Positions 5,916-48,390 of a stretch of DNA of 55,947 nt are shown here, piece by piece. The first letter of the stretch is position 1; each line of letters starts with the position of its first letter. A program made the translations under genes and the position numbers. Below the pieces are notes generated by a model. It had not been told where the DNA came from. It saw only the letters and a program-made list of their open reading frames with translations, and made no database searches. This DNA is from Ignavibacteria bacterium (GTDB taxonomy: Bacteria > Bacteroidota > Ignavibacteria > Tepidaquicellales > Tepidaquicellaceae): assembly GCA_016873795.1 (NCBI GenBank), contig VGWA01000005.1:1-55947 (forward strand), given 5' to 3'.

Positions 5916-7247
5916 TTGACATTATTCGAAGAAACAACATACGACAGTTCATTTATACCATTGCCTGAGCGAATCCGTCCGAAAAAATTCGATGAATTTG
6001 CGGGACAGGAGCATCTGATAAAAAAGGGCAAGCCGATACGGATGATGGTAGAGAACAACGAGCCTGTATCCATGATTTTCTGGGGACCTCCCGGAGTAGG
6101 AAAAACAACACTTGCTTTATTAATAGCGTCGTTAGTAAAAGCGGATTTAATACAAATTTCAGCAGTATCTGCGGGCGTAAAGGACATCAGAGATGCCATA
6201 AAAAAAGCCGAATACAACCTAAAGAGGAGACAAAAGACGATTCTATTTATTGACGAAATTCACCGATTCAACAAAGCACAGCAGGATTCTCTGCTTCAGA
6301 GCGTGGAAAAAGGGATAATAATCTTAATTGGTGCAACAACAGAAAATCCTTCCTTTGAAGTTATTTCTCCCTTGCTCTCGAGATGCAGGTTATACATACT
6401 TGAAGAGCTGAGGGTGAAAGATTTCAAATCAATTCTTCAAAATGCATTAGACAACGACGAGATATTAAGAAAACAAAAGATACAAATCGAGGATGAAAAT
6501 TTCCTTTTCCGATTATCCTGCGGAGATGCAAGAAGAATGCTGAACGGACTTGAGTTAGCCGTAAGGATGTCAAAGCCCGTAAAGGACGGAACAATAAAAA
6601 TCACAAATGAAATTTTAAAAGAGGCATTTCAGTCGAAATACATTAAATACGACAAGAAACAGGAAGAACACTACAACGTAATATCGGCATTCATAAAAAG
6701 CATACGCGGGAGCGACCCGGACGGTGCGGTATACTGGTTGGCAAGGATGCTGAAAGGAGGGGAAGACCCGAAATTTATTGCAAGACGGATGATAGTGCTT
6801 GCTTCGGAAGATATAGGAAATGCAGACCCTTATGCAATAACAATAGCAGTCAGTGCTTTTACGGCTGTTGATTACGCAGGCATGCCCGAGGCAAGGATAA
6901 TACTTTCACAGGCAGCAATATATCTTGCATGCTGTCCAAAAAGCAACGCGTCTTATCTTGCAATTCATAATGCAATGAAAGATACAGATGAATTACCCGA
7001 TTATGAAGTACCCATACATTTAAGAAATGCACCAACAGGATTGATGAAAGAATTGGGATACGGAAAAGATTATAAATATGTTCACGATTTTGAAGGCGGA
7101 TACGCAGTACAGCAGTATTTACCGGATGAATTGAAAGAAAAAGTATATTACAATCCAACCGATTACGGTTCGGAATCTAAAATAAAAAAGAAGCTGCAGG
7201 AAATAAGGATAGCCAAAAAAAGTACTTGGAACAAAAATAAAAATTAG
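5916..7247 (+). CDS. rarA: Replication-associated recombination protein A (AAA+ ATPase)
   Basis: RarA (MgsA) is a clamp-loader-like AAA+ ATPase that acts at stalled replication forks and interacts with SSB. The 443-residue length is typical. Walker A is GPPGVGKT at 57-64, and Walker B is ILFIDEIHRF at about 109-118, followed by NKAQQD. Sensor-1 is GATTENPSF and a sensor-2-like SCGDARR follows. The C-terminal tetramerisation region contains SDPDGAVYWLARML and the usual MPEARIILSQAAIYLA. The start is TTG at 5916, one base after the aminotransferase stop; the next in-frame candidates would trim the conserved N-terminus. The two-gene arrangement suggests co-transcription, probably from the tRNA promoter. 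Confidence 0.95.
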   Translation: MTLFEETTYDSSFIPLPERIRPKKFDEFAGQEHLIKKGKPIRMMVENNEPVSMIFWGPPGVGKTTLALLIASLVKADLIQISAVSAGVKDIRDAIKKAEYNLKRRQKTILFIDEIHRFNKAQQDSLLQSVEKGIIILIGATTENPSFEVISPLLSRCRLYILEELRVKDFKSILQNALDNDEILRKQKIQIEDENFLFRLSCGDARRMLNGLELAVRMSKPVKDGTIKITNEILKEAFQSKYIKYDKKQEEHYNVISAFIKSIRGSDPDGAVYWLARMLKGGEDPKFIARRMIVLASEDIGNADPYAITIAVSAFTAVDYAGMPEARIILSQAAIYLACCPKSNASYLAIHNAMKDTDELPDYEVPIHLRNAPTGLMKELGYGKDYKYVHDFEGGYAVQQYLPDELKEKVYYNPTDYGSESKIKKKLQEIRIAKKSTWNKNKN

Positions 7248-7284
7248 TTAGTTTACACTATATTATTAATTTAAAAAGGAAAAA

Positions 7285-7665
7285 ATGAAAAAGTTACTAT
7301 TATTAGCAGCATTACTGATTCTTTTCTTTGCTGTGAATGAGACAAACGCACAATCGGCAGTATATTTCTGCACGGAAACAGGCGCATACGGGTACTGTTA
7401 TGCCGCAGATACAAAATACGATGCCGAAGACTGCGCTTATGACTACTGCGTATCGTACGGAGGCACAAGCCCGACTTTAATAGTCAGCACAGGTGATAAG
7501 GGTTACGGTGCAATTGCTCTCGGCAAAAACAGCGACGGTTACAGGGTAATCGGAGCAGCGGTAGGATATACGACATTAAAAGATGCAAAAGATGCTGCTA
7601 TTGACGCCTGTAAAAATTCCGGCGGTAAAAACGTTAAAGTCGAGGACACCTGGTACGATTATTAA
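7285..7665 (+). CDS. Small secreted DUF4189-like protein
   Basis: This 126-residue protein has a clear signal peptide (MKKLLLLAALLILFFAV, cleavage near NAQS at 22-24). The mature part resembles DUF4189: two half-repeats that read aromatic/Gly-rich YGYCYAA or YGAIALG, then a helix with Ala and Asp ending in Cys. Five cysteines (29, 38, 50, 55 and 109) suggest disulfides once exported. The function of the family is unknown. A good Shine-Dalgarno (AAAAAGGA) lies just before the ATG. The gene follows rarA by 37 bases but could have its own promoter. It converges on the LVIVD-like lipoprotein gene, with an inverted repeat between them. Confidence 0.7.
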   Translation: MKKLLLLAALLILFFAVNETNAQSAVYFCTETGAYGYCYAADTKYDAEDCAYDYCVSYGGTSPTLIVSTGDKGYGAIALGKNSDGYRVIGAAVGYTTLKDAKDAAIDACKNSGGKNVKVEDTWYDY

Positions 7666-7682
7666 AAAAATCCGACAAATGT

Positions 7683-7799
7683 TAAAATTAACACCGATAA
7701 GACAGATTAACAGGAAATAAATATCCTCGTTAAAGAATTATTACAAAAAATAATTCAATGAATTTAAATTCAAATCTGTTTTAACGGTGTTATTATTTT
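7683..7799. terminator. Long imperfect inverted repeat between convergent genes, possible bidirectional terminator
   Basis: The arm at about 7683-7708 (AAATTAACACCGATAAGACA then GATT) recurs in reverse complement at about 7773-7799 (AATCTGTTTTAACGGTGTTA), with a few mismatches. The loop of about 65 bases itself contains the perfect 14-bp palindrome TGAATTTAAATTCA at 7759-7772. There is no classic U-run directly after either arm, so termination is inferred from position between stop codons at 7665 and 7811. The symmetry itself is plainly visible. Confidence 0.5.
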
Positions 7800-7810
7800 G
7801 ATATAAATAA

Positions 7811-8824
7811 TTACTGGGTTGTAAAGATATAAAGACCGTCTTCACCGTCGGCAAGATAAATAAAATTGCCGAATGCAAAAACATTGAATGGAGTACCTGT
7901 AGTAACATAATAGCCTGCCGATGAGGGCCAATACAGAGAATTGAGCGTATATTCTTCTATGGCATAAGAAGGTTCCGTAATATATAATTTATTACGTCTC
8001 AGAAAAATGCTTCCCACGTATGATTTTGCCGAAGCTGTCCCGAGATACACAGGGTTTGACGGGTATGTGACATCAATCACCGTAATGCCGGCAAGACCAT
8101 CTGCGACATAAGCCGTATTTGTTCCAACTGTAACATCATTTGCATCATCGAGTGTCGGTAAATAGCCCACAATATGCGGATTTGAGGGATTAGTCACATT
8201 CAATATTTCCAATCCGTAATCAGGTTCGGCTATATAGCACATTCCACCGGTAACATATAAACCTCCGATTTTATCGAAGGTATTATAAGAAGCAATCTGA
8301 GTCAATTGATTCGGAAGATTTGAAAGTTCGAGTATTTTCACAAATCCTTTATAAGTACCCGCATAAGCTTTATTATTGACCGTATCTATAAAAGCAGTCA
8401 AAACCGCATCCTGCGGAAAAAACATACTGTCCGTCTTGACCGGAGCAGCCGGATTAGACACATTAAGTACCATAAGTCCCTTATAACCGTCCGATACAAA
8501 GGCAAAAGGTATGTTATTTATATATGATACAAATACATCATATGCATAACCTGATGTATTGAACTTTACGACAATTGACGGTACACTGGGGAAACTTACA
8601 TCCAAAATATAAAGTCCCGAACCTCCGTCAGCTACAAAAGCATAAGATTTATTGTTAATCACCTGAACAAAAACTCCGCTGGCAAATCCGTCTGTATTTA
8701 CTTTTGCAATTAAACTCATATTTTTGAACTGAGGTTCGACAGATTCTTCAGTTTTTTTACAGGAACTAAAAACAACAGTCAGTATCATCAACATTGTTAT
8801 ATTCCAAATAATTTTTCCACGCAT
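7811..8824 (-). CDS. LVIVD-repeat beta-propeller lipoprotein
   Basis: This 337-residue predicted lipoprotein has an N-terminal hydrophobic segment ending FSSCKK, with Cys22 as the likely lipidated residue. The rest is built of repeated units of about 45 residues containing Y/FVADGxxGLxILDVSxPSxP (for example AFVADGGSGLYILDVS, AYVADGLAGITVIDV, YLADGEDGLYIF), the pattern of LVIVD/choice-of-anchor propellers found on cell surfaces. The function is unknown, probably surface binding. I start at the ATG at 8824 because an excellent Shine-Dalgarno (AAAAAGGAG) precedes it; a longer frame to 8869 would add 15 residues without such a site. The threonine aldolase gene ends 168 bases upstream on the same strand. 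Confidence 0.8.
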   Translation of the reverse strand: MRGKIIWNITMLMILTVVFSSCKKTEESVEPQFKNMSLIAKVNTDGFASGVFVQVINNKSYAFVADGGSGLYILDVSFPSVPSIVVKFNTSGYAYDVFVSYINNIPFAFVSDGYKGLMVLNVSNPAAPVKTDSMFFPQDAVLTAFIDTVNNKAYAGTYKGFVKILELSNLPNQLTQIASYNTFDKIGGLYVTGGMCYIAEPDYGLEILNVTNPSNPHIVGYLPTLDDANDVTVGTNTAYVADGLAGITVIDVTYPSNPVYLGTASAKSYVGSIFLRRNKLYITEPSYAIEEYTLNSLYWPSSAGYYVTTGTPFNVFAFGNFIYLADGEDGLYIFTTQ

Positions 8825-8992
8825 AATATGCTCCTTTTTTATTACAGCAATAGAAGAAAATAAATTCATACTTTCAATGATATTTTATATACAAGAATCC
8901 TATATAAAAGCAGAGGGAAAAAACAAATCAGTAATCCTATAGTTATCAAAGACAATATAAAAACAACAAAAACATACAGCCGATTAAAAAAT

Positions 8993-10012
8993 TTACACAA
9001 ACACGCTTTTAAATATACCGACCGCATTGTAAACATCCTGCATATCAACATCGAGATGAAACACTGCTCTTAAATTTTCATAACTTCCCGAAGAAATCAG
9101 CAAGCCTTTATTTTTAAGAAGTTTAATTAACTCATTTTTGGGAAATTTACCGGAAGAAAAAATGACGATATTTGTATGAACTTTTTCAATATTAATATTA
9201 ATACCATCAAGTTCCGATATTTCCTTTGCAAAGAATTTAGCTTTTTTATGGTCATCTTTAAGTCTATCGATATTATTATCGAGTGCATACAGAGCCGCAG
9301 CCGCGAGCACTCCTGCCTGTCTCATTCCTCCGCCGAGAATTTTTCTCCACTTATGCGCTTTTTGAATAAATTCCATTGTTCCGCACAGAACAGACCCTAC
9401 GGGACATCCGAGCCCTTTCGAAAAACAAAACGAAATCGAATCGACCAATGAAGCGTATTCTTTGACAGATATTCCGGTTCCCGTCATTGCATTAAATATT
9501 CTTGCTCCGTCAAGATGGATTTTAATTCCTCTTTCGGACGCAAGCCTGTTTATATCCTTAAAATTTCTTATGGAAAGGATTGTACCGCCGGCACGGTTAT
9601 GAGTATTTTCGAGGCATATCAAAGAAGTTTTCGGGAAATAATATTCCATTGTCCTGATATGTTTTCTGATGTCTTCCGGATTCATTTCGCCGTAATCACC
9701 CGGAATTGTTTTAATCTGTACCTGAGATATCACGGCAGGTGCAGCCGTCTCATAATTAAAGATATGCGCTTCCGACTCACAAATTATTTCATCTCCGGGA
9801 TTTGTATGTGATTTGACGGCAAGCTGGTTCGCCATGCAGCCTGTCGGGACGAACAGTGCTTTTTCTTTTCCGGTGAGTGCCGCACATTTTTCCTGCAGCA
9901 AATTAACAGTGGGATCTTCACCGAATACATCATCACCCAATTCGGCTTTAAGCATTGCATCATACATTCCTTTTGATGGTCTTGTAACTGTATCGCTTCT
10001 TATATCAATCAT
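8993..10012 (-). CDS. ltaE: Low-specificity L-threonine aldolase
   Basis: This PLP enzyme cleaves threonine or allo-threonine to glycine and acetaldehyde. At 339 residues it has the standard length. The N-terminus IDIRSDTVTRP is the family opening. His83 in EAHIF stacks on PLP, Asp168 and Arg171 lie in HLDGARIFNA, and Lys199 in CFSKGLGCPVGS is the Schiff-base lysine; WRKILGGGMRQAG follows as expected. The start at 10012 gives exactly this conserved N-terminus. gyrA ends 12 bases upstream on the same strand, so the two are probably co-transcribed, an incidental pairing. An overlapping hydrophobic frame at its 3' end (8866-9051) is not supported as a gene. Confidence 0.95.
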   Translation of the reverse strand: MIDIRSDTVTRPSKGMYDAMLKAELGDDVFGEDPTVNLLQEKCAALTGKEKALFVPTGCMANQLAVKSHTNPGDEIICESEAHIFNYETAAPAVISQVQIKTIPGDYGEMNPEDIRKHIRTMEYYFPKTSLICLENTHNRAGGTILSIRNFKDINRLASERGIKIHLDGARIFNAMTGTGISVKEYASLVDSISFCFSKGLGCPVGSVLCGTMEFIQKAHKWRKILGGGMRQAGVLAAAALYALDNNIDRLKDDHKKAKFFAKEISELDGININIEKVHTNIVIFSSGKFPKNELIKLLKNKGLLISSGSYENLRAVFHLDVDMQDVYNAVGIFKSVFV

Positions 10013-39294: not shown

Positions 39295-40686
39295 CTACAT
39301 TTTTCTGATTAAGATTTCCCAGTTATCGTTTCTTAATTCTCCTCTTATCGTACTATGTTCAAGTTTATAGATACCTGTTTGTGATTCTCTTTCGATAAAC
39401 ACGCATATAGCCGAGCCCTGTCCCGGTACAGCGTCATAAGTCCAAACTTCATAACTTCTCTTATCCGATTCAAAAGGATATCGTTGCAGTTCATCAGGTT
39501 TACCGTATAAGATAAAAATTCTTCCCCTATCAGTCTTCCATCCTTCTTTAAATGATTCCTTATACATTTCGTTTGCTTCTTTTATCCGTTTGAAATAATC
39601 AATTTTATATTCGTTTGCGAGCGTCATCGGCTGATTATCTCTGATTTTCCAGAAATTATACATAAATCTTCTTTTTCCGTCCAAAGCTTTCAAGTCTTCG
39701 TATGCTTCTGTTTCATTCTTATTTCTAATATAAATAGTTTTATCGAACTCATCGTCAAGGTTGTCTTCCGTCATAACCGCATATTCACTCCTCAAAAAAT
39801 TCTGTTCGTCGCTTTGAGGTGTTACAATTTCTTCGCCCGGATTAAAAACAAAAAATCTTTTTTCCGTTTTTAAATCTGTTGGATTATTATTCTCGTCTAA
39901 AAGCTGTATGTTAAGTATATAGGAACCGCTTTGCATAGAATCTGTCTTTACACTCCCTATTACCGCCTGTATTTCCTGTATAGGTTCGATTTTCTTTTCT
40001 TTAGAACATACGATTTTCCCTGAAAGATCTTTTACCGTAACTAATTCCGAAATTTCTTTTTTGCCGAGTTTATCGAGTCCGTATATCTCATAATAATAAT
40101 TCAGTGTGCTCAAGCCGATTCCAAATAAAGAATTAGGATTCGGTATTATCTCCAATCCGTTTTTATAGAAAATATTATTTTTATCACCTGACTTAGTAAT
40201 TGATGAAGCCAGCTGGAGCATACTTAAACGAGGTTCGTTCAAATCATAGGTATGTATATCTATTTCGAAATTAATTTGAGCTTTCTTTGAAGTATCGTTA
40301 TAATCTTTACCAAGAAGCGAGATGATATAGTCTCCCTTTGCTAAATCAAAATCAAGTTGGCTGATTAATCTTTTATTCATATTTGCGGGAGTTGTATCTG
40401 CAAGAATGCAAGGCAAGCCGTATATATCATCAAACATTATTTTATCGTTAATTTTATCTTTTATCATTACCTCAATATTGGCAAAAGCTTCAAATTTTTG
40501 ATTTGAATAAATAAATCTCAGATTACTGTGATTGAAAGAGAAGAAGATTTTGAGTCTTGTTTTATCGTCATCAAGTCTGTATGTTGCCAGATCCGCATCG
40601 AAATAGAATTTTCCCTGTGAAAAAATAACGCCGTTCAATAAAAAAATCATAACGGCTACGCTTAATAAAAATATTCTTCTTTTCAT
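39295..40686 (-). CDS. Exported GWxTD-domain protein
   Basis: This 463-residue protein has a signal peptide (about 1-24, ending GVIFSQ). The N-terminal two-thirds are beta-rich repeats of unknown type. The C-terminal GWxTD domain starts at residue 382 (GWKTDRGRIFILYGKPDE), followed by a loop with YEVWTY and an antiparallel end (CVFIERESQTGIYKL). GWxTD proteins occur in Bacteroidota, Acidobacteria and related phyla; the function is unknown, probably in the periplasm or at the surface. It is the first gene of the downstream cluster (GWxTD-ybbR-CPBP-pdxJ-lptB) after the terminator at 40735-40772. Confidence 0.85.
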   Translation of the reverse strand: MKRRIFLLSVAVMIFLLNGVIFSQGKFYFDADLATYRLDDDKTRLKIFFSFNHSNLRFIYSNQKFEAFANIEVMIKDKINDKIMFDDIYGLPCILADTTPANMNKRLISQLDFDLAKGDYIISLLGKDYNDTSKKAQINFEIDIHTYDLNEPRLSMLQLASSITKSGDKNNIFYKNGLEIIPNPNSLFGIGLSTLNYYYEIYGLDKLGKKEISELVTVKDLSGKIVCSKEKKIEPIQEIQAVIGSVKTDSMQSGSYILNIQLLDENNNPTDLKTEKRFFVFNPGEEIVTPQSDEQNFLRSEYAVMTEDNLDDEFDKTIYIRNKNETEAYEDLKALDGKRRFMYNFWKIRDNQPMTLANEYKIDYFKRIKEANEMYKESFKEGWKTDRGRIFILYGKPDELQRYPFESDKRSYEVWTYDAVPGQGSAICVFIERESQTGIYKLEHSTIRGELRNDNWEILIRKM

Positions 40687-40734: not shown

Positions 40735-40772
40735 AAAGGTAACCATAAAAATTACTCCTTATGGTTACCTTT
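40735..40772 (-). terminator. Strong intrinsic terminator after the PorV-like gene
   Basis: On the minus strand AAAGGTAACCATAA pairs perfectly over 14 bp with TTATGGTTACCTTT, with a 10-base loop, and a T run (TTTTTTCG) follows. It divides the TonB receptor/secreted protein/PorV-like operon from the GWxTD-ybbR-CPBP-pdxJ-lptB operon. Confidence 0.92.
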
Positions 40773-40793: not shown

Positions 40794-41831
40794 TCAGAAT
40801 CCTAAGTTAATAGTGAAGAACTGATTAGTATTGTCAAATCCTTTTTCATTCATAACTCTGTAAGCATAGTCGAGACCAATCATTACTCCGCCGACAGGAT
40901 ATCTCAATCCAACGCCGAAAGTCGGTCCGAAGAGTCTTTCATCCGTTTCTTTTTGCGGCAATAAATTAAAAGCACCTCTTACATAGAGTATATTTTTATA
41001 GGAATATTCAAGACCAAACCTGTATTCATCACTGGAAAAACTTGAATTCTGGAATGCCGCTGACAACACGACATTCATATCTTTCATATATCTTGCAAAA
41101 GAATATGAAAATCCGAGTTCCAGATTTGTCGGAAGGTCAAAGTCCTGAAGAATGACTCTTTGAGTGGTTTTCTGACCATTTTGAAGTTGTACTTCCCTGT
41201 CGAGACCGGGTCCGTTAAACCTCATAGATGGTCCTAGATTTTTAATAGCGATGCCGAATGTGAATCCGCTTTCACCGCCAACATATTGTATACCGAAATC
41301 AAAAGCAAAGCCGGTTGCACTTACTTCTGCAACATTTTCATTTATAATCTTTACGTTTGTTCCGAATTTAATTCTGTCTGTCATTTGTCTGGCAAAGCTC
41401 AAATTTGCCGTAATATAAGTAGGCTTAAAAACAGTACCGGTTCCTTCCGGCTGCAGTTCAGTTGTCTGGTATATTTCTCCGATGTTCAGAGATTTTATAC
41501 CGCCGCCAATGACACCAATATTTCCGATTTTGGCAGCTGCGCAGAAGTATTCCATTTTCATATCGGCGAAGTAATTCATATGAGAAAACAGAACTTCGGC
41601 ATTTGTAGAGTTCAACTGTGCCAATCCAGCCGGATTCCAGAACATTGCATCAAGTCCGGATGTATAAGCAAGATTCGAGCCGGCTAATGATGTCCCTATC
41701 GAACCGACGGGTATTAAAAGTTCCGGTGCGGCATTGGTTCCTAGCTTATTCCTGGGTCCTGCAAAGCCAATACTTACTGACAGAAAGATTATTAATATGG
41801 CTAAGAATGTTTTTTTAAAGTTCAAATTCAT
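40794..41831 (-). CDS. PorV/PorQ-like outer-membrane beta-barrel protein
   Basis: This 345-residue protein has a signal peptide (about 1-24, ending IGFAG) and a FadL-like barrel layout with many alternating aromatic and Gly-rich strands, ending in the C-terminal Phe typical of outer membrane barrels (FFTINLGF). Its start (AAPELLIPVGSIGTSLAGSNLAYTSGLDAMFWNPAGLA) is the PorV/UPF0164-type N-terminus. PorV shuttles T9SS cargo from the secretion channel to the surface attachment machinery, and its placement directly after a gene with a T9SS-like tail suits that role. AAGGAG precedes the ATG. It is the last gene of its operon. It may be one of several paralogues in the genome. Confidence 0.83.
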   Translation of the reverse strand: MNLNFKKTFLAILIIFLSVSIGFAGPRNKLGTNAAPELLIPVGSIGTSLAGSNLAYTSGLDAMFWNPAGLAQLNSTNAEVLFSHMNYFADMKMEYFCAAAKIGNIGVIGGGIKSLNIGEIYQTTELQPEGTGTVFKPTYITANLSFARQMTDRIKFGTNVKIINENVAEVSATGFAFDFGIQYVGGESGFTFGIAIKNLGPSMRFNGPGLDREVQLQNGQKTTQRVILQDFDLPTNLELGFSYSFARYMKDMNVVLSAAFQNSSFSSDEYRFGLEYSYKNILYVRGAFNLLPQKETDERLFGPTFGVGLRYPVGGVMIGLDYAYRVMNEKGFDNTNQFFTINLGF

Positions 41832-41901
41832 TTGTTTTTTTCTCCTTATTATTTATTAAACTCATTTTGCTTAAGCATTTTGAGTATTAATTTATAAGAG
41901 T

Positions 41902-44900
41902 TTAAAAATTAAGTCTTTCTTGAGATGTAAATATTACAATCTTTATCACTTTTTGACCAATGCCGGGTGCATCTATCAACGCAACGTAAACACCTGAGGC
42001 AACGGGAGTCCTATCCTGATTCTGCAGGTTCCATTCCGCCGTACTGCTGAATGTCGGGTCTCCCGTCCCCTGTTTATCGATTGTCTTTATCAAATCACCG
42101 TTTAATGTATAGATTTTAATCTTGCAAGTAAGCGGTAGATTTGTAAATGTGACAAATTTGTCGATAGAAGACCTGTCGAGTGTACTGAACCCGTAATAAG
42201 GATTCGGTACTACTTTAATCCTGTCCATAGCATTTAAAGTCTTTGCCAGTCCCGGATCTCCGAATATCGGTGCTACGGTTGTAAAGTCATAGAATAAAGG
42301 CACCGTTCCGTTGTAATAGGGTCTGAACACATTGTACGGGTAGAAGTACAATTCTTCACCCGGATTCCCTGCTCCGCCCGCACTTACAAGTCTCGGCGAC
42401 CAGGCATACATTATGTCAAATTGTGACTGCAGAATCACCAAATTTCTGTTCTTATAAGGAGTAGTTATATTTGTATCGTAATTTGAATAAAATACGTACA
42501 GCAATAACTTGTTTCCCAGTGAATCAGTGCTTGGGTTCCATTGTCCGGTAAATTGTCCGCTCCGGTCTGCCGATTCCACAAATGCACAGTTTACCTGCCT
42601 TCTAACTACCGTGAGGTCAGGTGTTACACTGTCGGCAAAAACCTTAAACGGAACCATTACTGCTTTTTGATATATATAGAAGTTATCTGTTGCCAATGAT
42701 GTGTCTCTGTAGTAATAAGCATATTGTCCATTATTAGGATCTGTCCATTGTATAGTAACTTTTCTAAGCTTATCAGCTGTTAATCCGGAAGCAAAACCGG
42801 TAAAAGTAGTTCTTGTCGGGAATGATGCTGCCATTGACCTGGATTGCCATGGCTGTGCAGCATTTCTAACCCAGTAACTACCGGTTATAAATCTATTGTT
42901 CGGATTCGAAAAACCATATCCGTAACTTCTTGTCTGAATACTATCTGTCGGAAGAGTCGGGTCTTTTATCAGACCGACATTTCCCAAATAGTTTATATTT
43001 GTCCCCGAACCTGTAACAGTATATCTGACTTTTTGAACGTTGAAATAAACACCGTTTGTTGTTTTAGACGAATCATCAGCAGATGTTTTTTCATTCGGAT
43101 ACTGATTCTTATACAGTGTATCCCATACAGTTTGATTTTGTCTCAGTCTCAAAATATTATAAGTGGTATCGGGGTTGAATATCACTCTGTATGTTGCATT
43201 TTGCAATAAGTTCATATTTCTGATTGTCGGGCAGACTCCGAGGTCTTTGAAGTTCGTGTTTAATGTATCATTATTCTTCAAAGTAAATACCGTACCTGCC
43301 GGAGGAGCAAGGGGACGTATTTTTATTAATTGTGTTCCAACCGAATTCCTAATAACTTTAAATCCTCTTCTTATATTAGGTGATGTACTCACCGCATACG
43401 CGACCACTGCAAACTGGTATTCCTGTCCGTAAACGAAACTCGATTGTCCTCCGTAATTCTCGGAAAAGCCTGTCTGTGTTAAAGTAATACTTCTCGTTAT
43501 ACCTGTATTCGGGAATCCGGCAGGGACATTCATCAGATACGGAGGAACAATCGGGAACGGAGAAAATTGTTCGTTGTTATTTACTACTATTCCCGTAGAA
43601 AATGTATCTATAATAATACCGATGTTATCTTTCTTATCATATGCGGCAATAAGTTTCAAAGCATTCGGATCCATTGTTGTCGGTTTTGTGAAATCCGGAA
43701 TTTGATTTGTGAATTTATTTATCTCATATACTTCATAACCCTGAAAATAGTATATATTTGAATCGACAGGGAGATAAAATATAGAATCCCAGTAACGGTA
43801 ACTTTCTGATATGTCACCCCAGCTTAAGGTAATCTTACATAATCCGCTTAATCCGGGATCGAATGAAGTACTAACCACAGGAGCGGGAGGAGGAGGAGTG
43901 ACGTTGAAATCTCTGTCATAAATTATTTGAGCAGTTTTAGAAAGTCCTTTTACTCTTGTGGCTGAATTCAAGTTTGAAGATCCTCTTGCCACGAACTGAG
44001 CCAGAACTATATTTTGAGTATCTCCCGGCGGCCATGACCAGTCGCTTCTTCCGGAATTAAATATGAATCTTCTATCTCCTGTCGGATTAACAGTCAGCGG
44101 AGTTGGTGCGGGAGGAGAAGTTGTATCACCGTTACAATTCTGGAACGAACCCTTAGCTTCCGTCCAGCCGGTATTCGTTTCCGGATCACCCGGGTAGACA
44201 AACAAAGTTCGTTTAAAAGGAGTTTGTGTCGGGTCCATAAACGGTGTTCTGTCTTTTTTCAAACCTCTTAACATATTATACGCATTAACAGGTTCACCGT
44301 TCGGGTCTGATTCGCAAGGGGGAGGATTTGAACCGGTGTTTGTAAAGAATACAAATGAGGTTAAACCCAAAGTGTCGTTCAATGCAGGATTTGTAGGATG
44401 TTTTATTATCGGACTTTTAAAATAATCCATACCCGAAGCAGGGGGAGCAATTCCGTATTTCTGGTCATCGTTATCGCCGTTATAGCAGAATCCCATATTT
44501 TGTGTTGTATCACAACCGATATAATCGTCATCTGCCTGTCCTAAATCCGGGTCAACGACAACTCCCATATGTACAGAGTCCCATGTATCCAATCCTTTAT
44601 TTATAATTACGAAATTAACAAATTGCATATCTTCCAGACCCGGGGTAGTATAAGCCCAGGAAGTCAGCTGCAATTCAGCCATCAATAACGGAGTTGTAAC
44701 GCCGCCGCCGAATCCTTCTCCGGCTGTTCTGAGTGAAGCATCAGCATCTACCAGACAAACAAAAATAGTTTGGCCGGCGTTTTTTCTTCCGGGAATGTCG
44801 ACATCCTGAGTATACTGACCATCTCCGTCAACATCGACCCAGGGAGCTCCGTAAGGAACCATTTTATACCAATTAGCATAATCCGGGTTAGTTGAACTGT

Positions 44901-45312
44901 TATCTCCTAACCTGACTGTATACATTTTAAAGTCCGGATTATCAGTCCATGTATGATTTATAATAGTTCCCGGTCTCCATTCGCCTTCGTATGATGCCAT
45001 TACCTGTCCCATCTGACCGTTTATATAAACGGCAAGACACAATCCTGCCGTAAAAATGGCATGTTTATTAGAGCCTTTGGGCCATTCAAAGCCCGGTGTA
45101 TTTGTTGTTCTTGTATCCTGATCAAAAATTCCCTTATTTTCAAAAAACGCCGCAATGTTGTTTGCATTAAGAGAAATTCTCTGGATTACCAAAGCATCAG
45201 GACTCATAACCTGATATGGTGTTTTACCAACTGTAACTCTCGGTTTAGCATAACCCATTGAGGCAATTATAATCAGTATTACAAGAATTGTTAATATTTT
45301 AAATTTTCTCAT
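41902..45312 (-). CDS. Very large exported protein with T9SS-type C-terminal domain
   Basis: This 1136-residue protein has a signal peptide (about 1-22, ending SMGYA). I do not recognise an enzyme domain. An acidic DVDGDGQ loop near 160-166 looks like a Ca-binding dockerin/EF-hand-type loop. Middle parts (about 490-660) have fibronectin type III-like beta features. The C-terminal 100 residues (VVPNPYYG, then LTCKIKIYTLNGDLIKTID, then VASGVYVALI and VKIVIF) match the pattern of Por-secretion C-terminal signals, though less canonical than that of the gene at 48471. It is read after the TonB receptor (37-base gap) and before the PorV-like gene (70-base gap), so it is probably surface-exposed cargo of that set. 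Function is unknown. Confidence 0.75.
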   Translation of the reverse strand: MRKFKILTILVILIIIASMGYAKPRVTVGKTPYQVMSPDALVIQRISLNANNIAAFFENKGIFDQDTRTTNTPGFEWPKGSNKHAIFTAGLCLAVYINGQMGQVMASYEGEWRPGTIINHTWTDNPDFKMYTVRLGDNSSTNPDYANWYKMVPYGAPWVDVDGDGQYTQDVDIPGRKNAGQTIFVCLVDADASLRTAGEGFGGGVTTPLLMAELQLTSWAYTTPGLEDMQFVNFVIINKGLDTWDSVHMGVVVDPDLGQADDDYIGCDTTQNMGFCYNGDNDDQKYGIAPPASGMDYFKSPIIKHPTNPALNDTLGLTSFVFFTNTGSNPPPCESDPNGEPVNAYNMLRGLKKDRTPFMDPTQTPFKRTLFVYPGDPETNTGWTEAKGSFQNCNGDTTSPPAPTPLTVNPTGDRRFIFNSGRSDWSWPPGDTQNIVLAQFVARGSSNLNSATRVKGLSKTAQIIYDRDFNVTPPPPAPVVSTSFDPGLSGLCKITLSWGDISESYRYWDSIFYLPVDSNIYYFQGYEVYEINKFTNQIPDFTKPTTMDPNALKLIAAYDKKDNIGIIIDTFSTGIVVNNNEQFSPFPIVPPYLMNVPAGFPNTGITRSITLTQTGFSENYGGQSSFVYGQEYQFAVVAYAVSTSPNIRRGFKVIRNSVGTQLIKIRPLAPPAGTVFTLKNNDTLNTNFKDLGVCPTIRNMNLLQNATYRVIFNPDTTYNILRLRQNQTVWDTLYKNQYPNEKTSADDSSKTTNGVYFNVQKVRYTVTGSGTNINYLGNVGLIKDPTLPTDSIQTRSYGYGFSNPNNRFITGSYWVRNAAQPWQSRSMAASFPTRTTFTGFASGLTADKLRKVTIQWTDPNNGQYAYYYRDTSLATDNFYIYQKAVMVPFKVFADSVTPDLTVVRRQVNCAFVESADRSGQFTGQWNPSTDSLGNKLLLYVFYSNYDTNITTPYKNRNLVILQSQFDIMYAWSPRLVSAGGAGNPGEELYFYPYNVFRPYYNGTVPLFYDFTTVAPIFGDPGLAKTLNAMDRIKVVPNPYYGFSTLDRSSIDKFVTFTNLPLTCKIKIYTLNGDLIKTIDKQGTGDPTFSSTAEWNLQNQDRTPVASGVYVALIDAPGIGQKVIKIVIFTSQERLNF

Positions 45313-45349
45313 CTTTTATTAATTAATTTTCAATTTTTAATTTTTTTAA

Positions 45350-48298
45350 TTAAAATGAAACATTAACGCCGAACCTGACCTGTCTCGGTGGTCCCCAGTT
45401 GCCGAAATATTTTATCCTTTCTGGCCAGAGTGCTCTGAAGACCGGATCAGTTACAAATTTCGAAGCACCTGTCGGGGTAGTTGTGTAACCGTTATCGTCA
45501 GGTTTTCCTGTTCCTTCAAAAATGTCATTAACAATTTCTGTGTTTAATGCGTTAATTACATAAAAATAAAAATTCCAGTTAGTTTTCCATATTCTTACGG
45601 TTTTATCGAGTCTTAAATCAAGTCTGAAATTCCATTTTGTATATACTTCATTCTTGGAGGAATAAATAATATCACCTCCATATCCATTCCATGTATATGA
45701 CGCATCTCTTGCGGTATAAGGTCTTCCGCTGTTAAACGAGAATAATACATTTAATCCGAGATTCTTCAGCACATCACCAAGAACTCCCTGCGGTACATCG
45801 TCATCTCCGAATCTGTAATCAAGATTAATATTACCGGTATGTCTCTGGTCATAATCCAGAGGATAGACAAAATACGGAAGTTCCTGTGTAGCATCATTTG
45901 CAAGTGAATTTTTGGAATACGGATCAGAACCCGTACCGGTCGCATAAGACAAAGTATATGCGGCATCAATCGAGATTCTGTTCCATCTTCTCATACTGAA
46001 ATAGAAATCAAGACCTTTTGATATTGCATAGTCAAGATTCTGATATGCTGCAAAACCCACAGGTACTTTTCCGTCAGGTGTAGCTTTAATTCTTCCTGCT
46101 CCTATTAAGTCAACCGATTCTTTGTAAAACGCAGTTATTCCGAGGTTGATATAATCTCCAACCTGCTGTTTAAATCCGATTTCATACTGTGTGAGTTTAG
46201 TCGGTTTAAGTGAAGAATTTTCAATCACATCCTGGAGAGATGTTGATAAAAACTCTCTCAAAGTGGCTTTGTTAACATATAAGAGATTTAACTGCGGCAT
46301 CTGTACCATTTTTCCGTACTGAGCAATAAAAATAATTTTATCGGTAATCGGGAATGAAAAACCGAGTCTGGGACTTACAGTAACATCCACTTTACTCTTT
46401 ACGAAATCATCCGGGGATGCAACCACTCCGTCCGGTCCGGTAATATCATGCATAAGGTCTTTGAATACATCGTCATTCACATCGAGAAAGTCTACTCTTA
46501 AGCCGCCGTTAAAATTAAAGTCTGAGAAACTTACTTTATCTCTGATATAGAAACCGCCGGTTATCGGGTGTTTGGGTGCAGTACCTGCATCAATATTACT
46601 CTGGTCAGCTACCAAATCCCCTGTTAAAGGATCATATATTGTAAATCCGTATGTTTTCAATCTTGCAAGATTTGTACCGTAATATCTGTTATATGTACTT
46701 GAAATAGTTAAGTCCGCAATGGAAGCAGGATATACGGATATTTTTTTCAGTGTATGATATTTTAATTCGCCGCCGAATTTTATTTCGTGGTCTCCGAATT
46801 TTTTACTAAGCAAAGCCCAGGTAGCATCTAATTTTCCTCCGAGGTAACTAATGTCATATTTTTGATAATAATCAATTACTTTATCTCTGGGGTAAAATAA
46901 ATACGAAGTTTTTGGGTCATAAGGCAAAGTTAATCCAGGACCTCTTCCATATGCCGCCAATTTCGGATTTGCTGCAGTATCTCCGTATAAATATAATTTA
47001 TCTTCAAATACAGGGTCAAATTGCTCGGTTATAGTTTTGAAATAATTACCCTGCAGTTCGAAGAAAAATTTACTTGACGGATTTACTGAAACCCTTGCAA
47101 AATACTGTTGATCATTAGCTTTGGTGACCGGATTTCTGTAAGAGTTCATTAATACATTCCCACCGTAAAGTATTCTGCCTTTTGTATATGTATATGTTCC
47201 TCCTAATCTTAAATTAACCGGGACTTTACTGTTTTGAATTTCTGTTAAATTTATATTTAATCTTGCATTTATTGAATAACGCCCTGATTCATTATCTTTA
47301 ACTTTTCCTTCTGAAAATCCCAGAGAATCAACAGATTTTGGAAGGTTATTGGCAATTACTCCGCTGTTATAAACACTTAACAGATTCTTAGTATATTTAT
47401 CAATAATCCATGAACCGACAGTCATCCTTTCGAAAGTCCTTTCAAAACTTCCGAAGAAATTAAATACTCTGGCTAATTCTTTTGTAGGAATTACCGGACC
47501 ACCAATCGTCATATTATATAAATTATAGCCCTGAGATTTCTTTCCCATAAATTCGTCTGTTATTACTTCAAGCGAACCGGTATATCTGTCAGTTCCGCTT
47601 CTTGTAGATACGTTAATAACACCGCTGAGAACATTACCGTATTCCGCTCCAAAACCTCCCGTTAATACTGTGATTTCGGACAGAAGGTTATTCGGAATAC
47701 TGGCTCTTGAAGTACCGTCGATAGGATTTGTAGTTTCGACACCATCCACGATTATAATATTTTCATTGGTTCGTCCGCCTCTAATATTCAGATTACCGCC
47801 TCTTTCATCCTGCACGACGCCAGCAGTCTTCGCCACAATATTCGTAATTCCTCGAATTCCTGTATTCGTAATACTCTGACTTTCTATAATTCTTCCGCTT
47901 TGCTCTACGTCTATTCCTTTTCTTTCTGCTTCGATAACGATTACGTCAGTCTTAATTTCTCCGGTTACCGATAACTCAAATTTTACTTTCGTTCTCATAT
48001 CTACCGATACTTTTACGCCTGTAATCATTTTCTTATCATAACCGATATACGTCACTTCAAGGTCATAAGTACCTACATCTACGTTTAAAATTACGAACTC
48101 TCCACCGGCATCGGATATTGCACCCATATTAGAGCCTACAATTTTTATTGTAGCGCCTTCAAGAGGAACACCGTTGGTTATGTCTACAACATCTCCTCCG
48201 ATACTTCCGGTAGACTGCGACATAGCATCAATCGAAAAGAAACACAGTAAAGCAAATATCAAAAGGGAAATAATCTTTGTAAATATATTATCCCTCAT
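45350..48298 (-). CDS. TonB-dependent outer-membrane receptor with carboxypeptidase-regulatory-like domain
   Basis: This 982-residue receptor begins with a signal peptide (about 1-28), then a carboxypeptidase D regulatory-like domain (about 29-118; IGGDVVDITNGVPLEGATIKI and GTYDLEVTYIGYDKK), then a plug domain (GGNLNIRGGRTNENIIIVDGVETTNP at about 170-195) and a beta-barrel to the end, finishing RFGVNVSF with the terminal Phe required for outer membrane insertion. No SusD-type lipoprotein follows; instead a 1136-residue secreted protein and a PorV-like barrel do. The ATG is preceded by GGAGG. Its leader (48332-48390) forms a terminator-like hairpin. Substrate is unknown; it may be a surface receptor for a large ligand or assembly partner. 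Confidence 0.92.
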   Translation of the reverse strand: MRDNIFTKIISLLIFALLCFFSIDAMSQSTGSIGGDVVDITNGVPLEGATIKIVGSNMGAISDAGGEFVILNVDVGTYDLEVTYIGYDKKMITGVKVSVDMRTKVKFELSVTGEIKTDVIVIEAERKGIDVEQSGRIIESQSITNTGIRGITNIVAKTAGVVQDERGGNLNIRGGRTNENIIIVDGVETTNPIDGTSRASIPNNLLSEITVLTGGFGAEYGNVLSGVINVSTRSGTDRYTGSLEVITDEFMGKKSQGYNLYNMTIGGPVIPTKELARVFNFFGSFERTFERMTVGSWIIDKYTKNLLSVYNSGVIANNLPKSVDSLGFSEGKVKDNESGRYSINARLNINLTEIQNSKVPVNLRLGGTYTYTKGRILYGGNVLMNSYRNPVTKANDQQYFARVSVNPSSKFFFELQGNYFKTITEQFDPVFEDKLYLYGDTAANPKLAAYGRGPGLTLPYDPKTSYLFYPRDKVIDYYQKYDISYLGGKLDATWALLSKKFGDHEIKFGGELKYHTLKKISVYPASIADLTISSTYNRYYGTNLARLKTYGFTIYDPLTGDLVADQSNIDAGTAPKHPITGGFYIRDKVSFSDFNFNGGLRVDFLDVNDDVFKDLMHDITGPDGVVASPDDFVKSKVDVTVSPRLGFSFPITDKIIFIAQYGKMVQMPQLNLLYVNKATLREFLSTSLQDVIENSSLKPTKLTQYEIGFKQQVGDYINLGITAFYKESVDLIGAGRIKATPDGKVPVGFAAYQNLDYAISKGLDFYFSMRRWNRISIDAAYTLSYATGTGSDPYSKNSLANDATQELPYFVYPLDYDQRHTGNINLDYRFGDDDVPQGVLGDVLKNLGLNVLFSFNSGRPYTARDASYTWNGYGGDIIYSSKNEVYTKWNFRLDLRLDKTVRIWKTNWNFYFYVINALNTEIVNDIFEGTGKPDDNGYTTTPTGASKFVTDPVFRALWPERIKYFGNWGPPRQVRFGVNVSF

Positions 48299-48324: not shown

Positions 48325-48390
48325 TAAAAAAACAACCTTAAAATCAGTATCTGTGATTAATTTTTTATCTCTTACCGATATTAAGGTTGT
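48325..48390 (-). promoter_or_regulatory. Leader hairpin with U-run just before the TonB-receptor gene
   Basis: On the minus strand ACAACCTTAA (48381-48390) pairs with TTAAGGTTGT (48332-48341), followed immediately by TTTTTT (48326-48331), about 34 bases before the ATG. Inside the 39-base loop a second stem AATCA/TGATT can form. It has the build of an intrinsic terminator but stands directly before the receptor's Shine-Dalgarno. It could end transcription from the gene at 48471 or act as an attenuator; I found no clear promoter between it and the gene. Confidence 0.6.

Follow-up and report, generated by a model that had tools for sequence, protein, structure and literature searches.

In Porphyromonas gingivalis, PorU and PorZ, two proteins exported by the type IX secretion system (T9SS), are carried on barrels of the PorV/PorQ family, and their subcomplexes PorU:PorV and PorQ:PorZ, as described in PMC5562754, are precedents for the three-gene unit reported here from contig VGWA01000005.1 of Ignavibacteria bacterium (assembly GCA_016873795.1). 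This contig, called the window below and analyzed over its whole 55,947 nucleotides, is contig 5 of a 2.7-Mb, 273-contig assembly that is 97.6% complete. The unit lies on the minus strand and codes for a TonB-dependent receptor of 982 aa with a carboxypeptidase-regulatory-like N-terminal domain, a plug and a barrel (45350..48298, named T), an exported protein of 1136 aa (41902..45312, named G) and a barrel of 345 aa from the PorV/PorQ family within the FadL superfamily (40794..41831, named V). The coordinates, the single direction and the gaps of 37 bases (T to G) and 70 bases (G to V) that had been given in a preliminary description of this DNA were confirmed from the open reading frames (ORFs).

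The unit resembles the P. gingivalis pairs in setting a T9SS-exported protein, with the same kind of C-terminal tail, beside a PorV/PorQ-family barrel. It differs from them in that G was seen to match neither the propellers of PorZ nor the protease of PorU, V falls below the cut-offs for PorV and PorQ themselves, and a TonB receptor belongs to the unit. A second precedent comes from Flavobacterium, where the large surface protein SprB is described as held by SprF and proteins with type B C-terminal domains (CTDs) go with PorP/SprF proteins, the dedicated FadL-like barrel being encoded directly downstream; these shuttles are reported as cognate, of low abundance and remaining bound, and V can be likened to them (PMC12618676, PMC9143113). 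Unlike those proteins, the tail of G has no match to the type B model, and V has none to a PorP/SprF model among NCBIfam matches up to E 1. Type A tails in Flavobacterium are all said to use one PorV (PMC12618676), which differs from the dedicated V considered here. In the barrel assembly machinery (BAM) of Bacteroidota, the FadL-like barrel BamG is reported to carry the surface protein BamH on its extracellular loops; BamH is a lipoprotein there and BamG binds BamA (PMC12611786, PMC12578637), whereas V scores only 24.3 bits against the BamG cut-off of 250. In Myxococcus xanthus, the TonB-dependent transporter Oar is tied to the exported protein PopC (PMC6434023). With SusC–SusD and other TonB receptor–lipoprotein pairs the unit shares a carboxypeptidase-regulatory-like receptor adjoining a large exported protein that may have a carbohydrate-binding fold; it differs from them in that SusD (PF07980) is not found in the assembly, a T9SS tail takes the place of a lipoprotein signal, none being visible in G by eye, and T has no SusC-named match. 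To our knowledge, Oar–PopC differs from the unit in having neither a T9SS tail nor a PorV protein.

Conservation of the Gene Order and Its Link to Tail Type

Matches to G (E 1e-10 or better) were found in 129 of the 296 genomes in a sample of the phylum. Stretches around about 100 sample loci and ten named loci were taken, and their ORFs were called and labelled with profiles built from the loci; all loci are matches to the window's own G, among the matches listed, and frequencies across them are not unbiased. The 126 loci hold 153 ORFs with the body of G (body ORFs), and 72 of these form a T-G-V series with all three genes on one strand; the median gaps there are 37.5 bases (T to G) and 34.5 bases (G to V). 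Sixty-nine of these 72 trios have a full-size T (>700 aa) and come from 63 genomes, a count that takes in sample genomes and the named loci (L033 to L042), two sets that may overlap. The 61 trio genomes within the sample span 22 family codes (10 in the class of the window and 12 outside it, counted by hand), and the named relatives that were found are Ignavibacteria. The preliminary description had singled out this three-gene order as the feature to seek in relatives; the order is conserved, and a state in which the genes lie mostly apart was not found.

The bodies carry one of two kinds of T9SS tail, either the ordinary type A tail or the tail found on the window's G (the special tail), and their neighbours differ with the kind of tail. 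T is upstream of 77 of the 95 special-tail bodies vs. none of the 31 type A bodies, and V is downstream of 78 of 104 vs. none of 35. Where both flanks could be scored, 74 special-tail bodies have both neighbours, 16 have neither, 3 have T only and 2 have V only, while all 29 type A bodies have neither. Thirty-two trio tails served as the seed of the special-tail profile; at loci outside the seed, V is still downstream of 43 of 66 special-tail bodies vs. 0 of 25 type A bodies. These counts leave aside 12 of the 153 body ORFs for want of a readable tail and, owing to short or open flanks, another 2 on the downstream and 15 on the upstream side; one special-tail ORF (L057) is counted as lacking V, though its next gene is labelled V elsewhere. 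Fisher values ignore kinship, and we gave exact P-values no weight because related sequences are not independent. Among the named loci, the trio members L033 and L040 carry the window's tail in the alignment, yet L034, L036 and L037, whose bodies are 42–52% identical to G, have the ordinary type A tail at their end. Additionally, a trio and a type A-tailed body coexist in 15 genomes.

Over 69 trios, the distance correlations were 0.91 for T and G, 0.82 for G and V and 0.88 for T and V (species kinship not being controlled for), and all three genes share the same nearest neighbour in 33 of the 69. Several trio copies occur in each of six genomes (G014, G019, G066, G074, G228 and G236).

The C-Terminal Domain of G

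Residues 1036–1136 of G (41905..42207) make up the tail. The preliminary description had called it T9SS-like, and by profile searches it does belong among the T9SS CTDs, with no failure against their profiles; it is not, however, an ordinary type A tail, being longer and closest in sequence to the tails of PorZ and PorU. The type A model (TIGR04183) is absent from the NCBIfam matches of whole G and gives the window tail 16.1 bits, below the cut-off of 23. The tail aligns with the end of the PorZ model and with that of the PorU model, at scores far under their whole-protein cut-offs; for PorZ, the scores were 28.3 bits with whole G (tail part only) and 33.9 bits with the tail alone, vs. a cut-off of 260. 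The PorZ model matches 72 of 72 special tails vs. 4 of 37 type A tails. PorU was rejected as a specific relative of the tail; its model matches both kinds, so PorZ alone discriminates. A profile of the 72 tails searched against the PDB found PorZ first (5m11, 4.8e-5), PorU second (6za2, 0.055) and then FlgD (0.08 and 0.11). The distance from a conserved Pro-Asn-Pro to the C-terminus has a median of 98 residues in special tails vs. 79 in type A tails. A loop pattern is present in 72 of 72 special vs. 0 of 37 type A tails (65 of 72 vs. 0 of 37 for a stricter form); it was composed after inspecting the tails and thus describes them and does not test them. Within its own genome, where at least 150 type A tails are present (150 of 181 candidates were scored, all listed rows being over the cut-off), G has, apart from the self-match, just two matches, to the tail of a 684-aa ORF on contig 67 (2.8e-5) and to that of PorU (0.0037).

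In P. gingivalis, the CTDs of PorA, PorU and PorZ are reported to be kept, and tails processed by PorU have 67–88 residues, compared with 96 and 108 for the unprocessed tails of PorZ and PorU, measured from another point than ours (PMC11285876). The likeness in sequence between the tail of G and these retained tails is suggestive of retention and is not proof of it. The same likeness can be read in another way, namely that G and V are a second attachment complex, a PorZ–PorQ-like pair that binds a surface sugar or lipopolysaccharide for T9SS sorting or outer-membrane assembly and has no part in uptake. Such a pair would agree with the PorZ-like tail in 72 of 72 cases, with the reported binding of PorZ to PorQ (PMC5562754) and with the sugar-enzyme-like N-terminal fold that low-confidence models give to G. 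However, a beta-propeller match was not seen in G, the PorZ model gives its tail 33.9 bits against 260, PorU and PorV are present besides, and a TonB receptor upstream in 77 of 95 cases together with multiple copies in some genomes suits uptake better, all of which makes this alternative rather unlikely.

V and Other PorV-Family Proteins

V scores 164.2 bits against the PorV/PorQ family model NF033709 (cut-off 90), so the PorV-like barrel of the preliminary description stands at the level of the family and fails for PorV itself. All equivalog models were under their cut-offs (PorV, NF033710, 56.1 of 250 bits; PorQ, 80.4 of 220; PorV2, 83.3 of 325). The genome has nine places with PorV-family matches, seven of them over the cut-off. 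In a FastTree tree of 85 PorV-family proteins (midpoint root), the V proteins of the trios fall into one group of 80 tips with support 0.999; this group includes 11 members from outside the trios, two of which are from the window's own genome (contigs 27 and 67), and outside it are the PorV beside PorU and four more PorV-family proteins of the same genome. Contigs 5, 61, 24 and 17 of this genome each have a PorV-family gene next to one that encodes a T9SS-like tail. On contig 24 (L183:4270-7860), a 547-aa ORF with a T9SS-like tail is followed by two PorV-family genes. Contig 67 (L180:235-2289 and 6040-9939) holds a second TonB receptor of 940 aa with a PorV-family gene of 346 aa directly after it, and the 684-aa ORF four genes upstream of this V has the special tail and a partial body match; the set is possibly a second version of the module.

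A receptor and a V without a G between them, as on contig 67, would also fit an ordinary uptake operon, in which T and V are importers, V being a FadL-like channel for a hydrophobic ligand, while G is a plain T9SS cargo of the ordinary PorV and V does not bind its tail. PorV-family proteins do lie within the FadL superfamily, V has weak matches to Toluene_X and Porin_4 (both below cut-off), and an ordinary PorV is encoded beside PorU in the genome. On the other hand, V passes the cut-off of the PorV/PorQ family, and a mere uptake operon leaves unexplained that type A-tailed bodies never stand beside V (0 of 35). We regard this explanation as unlikely.

The Receptor and the Secretion Machinery of the Genome

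T passes the Pfam cut-offs for CarboxypepD_reg, CarbopepD_reg_2, the plug (PF07715, 37.9 bits, cut-off 23.9) and the TonB barrel (PF00593, 83.2 bits, cut-off 27), and no SusC/RagA model is among its NCBIfam matches up to E 1. For SusD (PF07980), no match was obtained in the assembly at E 1e-5, nor was there a SusD-named match among the scanned neighbours. A carboxypeptidase-regulatory-type TonB receptor without a SusD partner, as had been proposed from the DNA alone, is thus what the locus contains. SusD is present in 13 of the 73 sampled genomes of the window's class vs. 142 of the 223 others. The unit as a strict replacement of SusD was rejected, and it is not simply a SusD substitute, because trio genomes can have SusD as well (22 of 61 in the sample).

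The genome encodes a full-length SprA (a 2200-aa frame), and its PorU (910.8 bits) is directly before a PorV on contig 61. Since the genome has SprA in full length and, next to PorU, a PorV distinct from V, the unit is not self-contained for export, contrary to the earlier view of it. Contig 1 (L186:8004-18062) also holds two ORFs in tandem (1625 and 1671 aa); the N-terminal part of each matches the PorU sortase model with about 266 bits, under its cut-off of 420. SprA was found in 129 of the 129 sampled genomes with a G match, and a G match in 0 of the 68 genomes without SprA, a comparison that is confounded in that all but one of the 20 SprA-negative genomes listed belong to a single family (f24). 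This distribution bears on the idea that T itself moves G across the outer membrane, much as PopC secretion in Myxococcus is reported to depend on Oar. T is directly upstream of G, and the literature has an example of protein secretion that requires a TonB-dependent transporter (PMC6434023). G nevertheless has a T9SS-type tail, SprA accompanies every G match in the sampled genomes, and there are type A-tailed bodies without a T, which leaves export by the receptor very improbable.

The Body of the Exported Protein

G begins with a hydrophobic, signal-peptide-like N-terminus in which a lipobox was not seen by eye, and with this putative signal peptide and a CTD of the T9SS kind it has the sequence marks of T9SS export. 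No Pfam match was obtained for G. AlphaFold models were made for the whole protein (mean pLDDT 52.2) and for residues 41–476 (mean pLDDT 53.1). Both match the N-terminal super-beta-sandwich and the following helix of glucan phosphorylases, GH116 glucosidases and related enzymes, and this predicted fold covers residues 40–470 (43903..45195, minus strand). In these low-confidence models, the best structure match for residues 40–470 was 9ju0 (Z 18.2, 248 aligned residues, 3.1 Å) and the best for the separate model was 5ost (Z 13.8, 242 aligned, 4.1 Å), and the best Foldseek E-values were 1.1e-5 and 2.3e-5. Sequence searches of the body against Pfam and the PDB gave no support for a carbohydrate-active-enzyme fold. 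The catalytic helical barrel of GH94, GH116, GH15 and other such enzymes was sought after residue 512, where the model has mostly strands at low confidence, and the models gave nothing usable for regions past about residue 470. The modelled sugar-enzyme-like fold is only a lead because the structure matches rest on models of such low mean pLDDT, and a sugar-binding role is likewise only a lead because sequence searches give it no support.

G, with its 1136 aa, had been described as a giant protein; the word holds in a relative sense only, as two open frames with T9SS tails in the same genome reach 4602 and 3261 aa. Elsewhere among the loci, four (L096, L105, L117 and L171) have tandem arrays of 3–5 body ORFs with special or type A tails and without T or V.

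Flanking Signals and Neighbouring Genes

The preliminary description placed the three genes between a leader hairpin and a strong terminator, and both signals were recovered. Directly 3' of V is a terminator-like hairpin of 17 pairs followed by a T run (40735..40772, minus strand); the terminator scan of the window gave 10 sites vs. 8.4 in shuffled sequences, the V hairpin having by far the longest stem. A leader hairpin with a U run lies 5' of T at about 48390–48326 (48326..48390, minus strand), within a stretch of 181 nt that holds two hairpins and has a fold z of −5.86. Hairpins with different letters occur at the same place before T in the close relatives L033, L040, L052 and L054. No Rfam family was found for the leader, the matches being at chance level only, and a riboswitch was rejected on this ground; the hairpin may be an attenuator, or the terminator of the upstream gene, whose 596-aa product has a T9SS tail of the ordinary type A. 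Past the terminator of V there is a gene with a GWxTD domain (39295-40686 of the window), and such a gene directly follows V in 23 of the 72 trio loci. The word GWxTD was not found in the open-licence papers searched.

Discussion

On balance we lean toward the reading that the T-G-V unit encodes one surface complex, in which G is anchored on V and works with T. G would leave the cell by the T9SS and retain its CTD, and V, as a dedicated PorV paralogue, would take up this domain and stay bound to it. G would in this way be fixed to the cell surface with neither a lipid nor cleavage by the sortase, on the pattern of PorZ with PorQ and of PorU with PorV; we consider the anchoring of G on V fairly probable. 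T would stand beside G and V, and the carbohydrate-enzyme-like N-terminal domain predicted for G would present a ligand to T, much as SusD does to SusC. The constant presence of T suggests that G, once anchored, assists the receptor in the way that SusD assists SusC, and the modelled fold of G possibly points to a receptor-serving role too. An uptake role of the unit is put forward tentatively, at somewhat less than an even chance.

Several results weigh against such a complex. No V is downstream of 26 of the 104 special-tail bodies, and 16 of those scored on both flanks have neither T nor V. T and V also occur together, so the link with the tail does not distinguish one from the other. With regard to the tail itself, 68 of the 72 special tails also reach E 0.01 or better with the type A model, matches to the PorU model are present in 24 of the 37 type A tails as well as in 48 of the 72 special ones, and a PorZ-type hairpin grafted into RgpB is reported not to have stopped cleavage (PMC11285876), so that the hairpin alone does not predict retention. 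Both AlphaFold models of G are poor, and the 22 trio genomes with SusD count on the same side. Neither TonB_C nor tonB_Cterm was matched in the 273-contig metagenome-assembled genome of the window; TonB_C is present in 294 of the 296 sampled genomes, including one of the same family (G180), and because of this the missing TonB is probably an assembly gap. Finally, the partial correlation of V with the tail (0.18) hardly exceeded that of V with the N-terminal part of G (0.155; bootstrap 0.605), so V and the tail are not singled out, and for genomes holding two trios the sign test came out at 1.00 in one pair and at 0.43–0.70 in the other five, a weak agreement.

The weakness of these paralogue and rate tests would suit a neighbourhood of co-regulated outer-membrane genes whose products never come into contact, as would the GWxTD gene, which likewise follows V in 23 of 72 trios; contact cannot be shown by operon order alone. 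The short constant gaps, and a tail type that tracks the neighbours over 22 families, argue against a neighbourhood of this sort, and we hold it to be improbable.

Each part of the unit is known in kind, and it is the joining of a TonB receptor, a PorZ-type tail on a body of its own and a dedicated PorV paralogue that makes an apparently new combination; no description of such a unit was found in the open-licence PMC titles and abstract openings that the searches listed. The unit may represent a type of surface receptor complex that has so far gone unrecognised. A broader proposal, which we make with more doubt than conviction, is that it represents a class of uptake or surface-sensing complexes in Ignavibacteria and relatives, in which the partner of the receptor is not a lipoprotein and would be a T9SS-exported protein held by an uncleaved PorZ-type tail on a PorV paralogue. 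This would be a third T9SS destination beside sortase-anchored type A and SprF-held type B proteins, with a body that swaps tails between an anchored form and a free type A form. Because related bodies carry either tail, some of them within one genome, the family is a natural test case for what determines the retention or removal of a T9SS tail. If the proposed complex is real, PorV-family paralogues would be several dedicated anchors, each paired with a tail of its own, and not one shuttle, and the T9SS would build receptor complexes in addition to delivering secreted enzymes and adhesins. It would also explain how TonB-type receptors could have large surface partners in bacteria with few or no SusD proteins.

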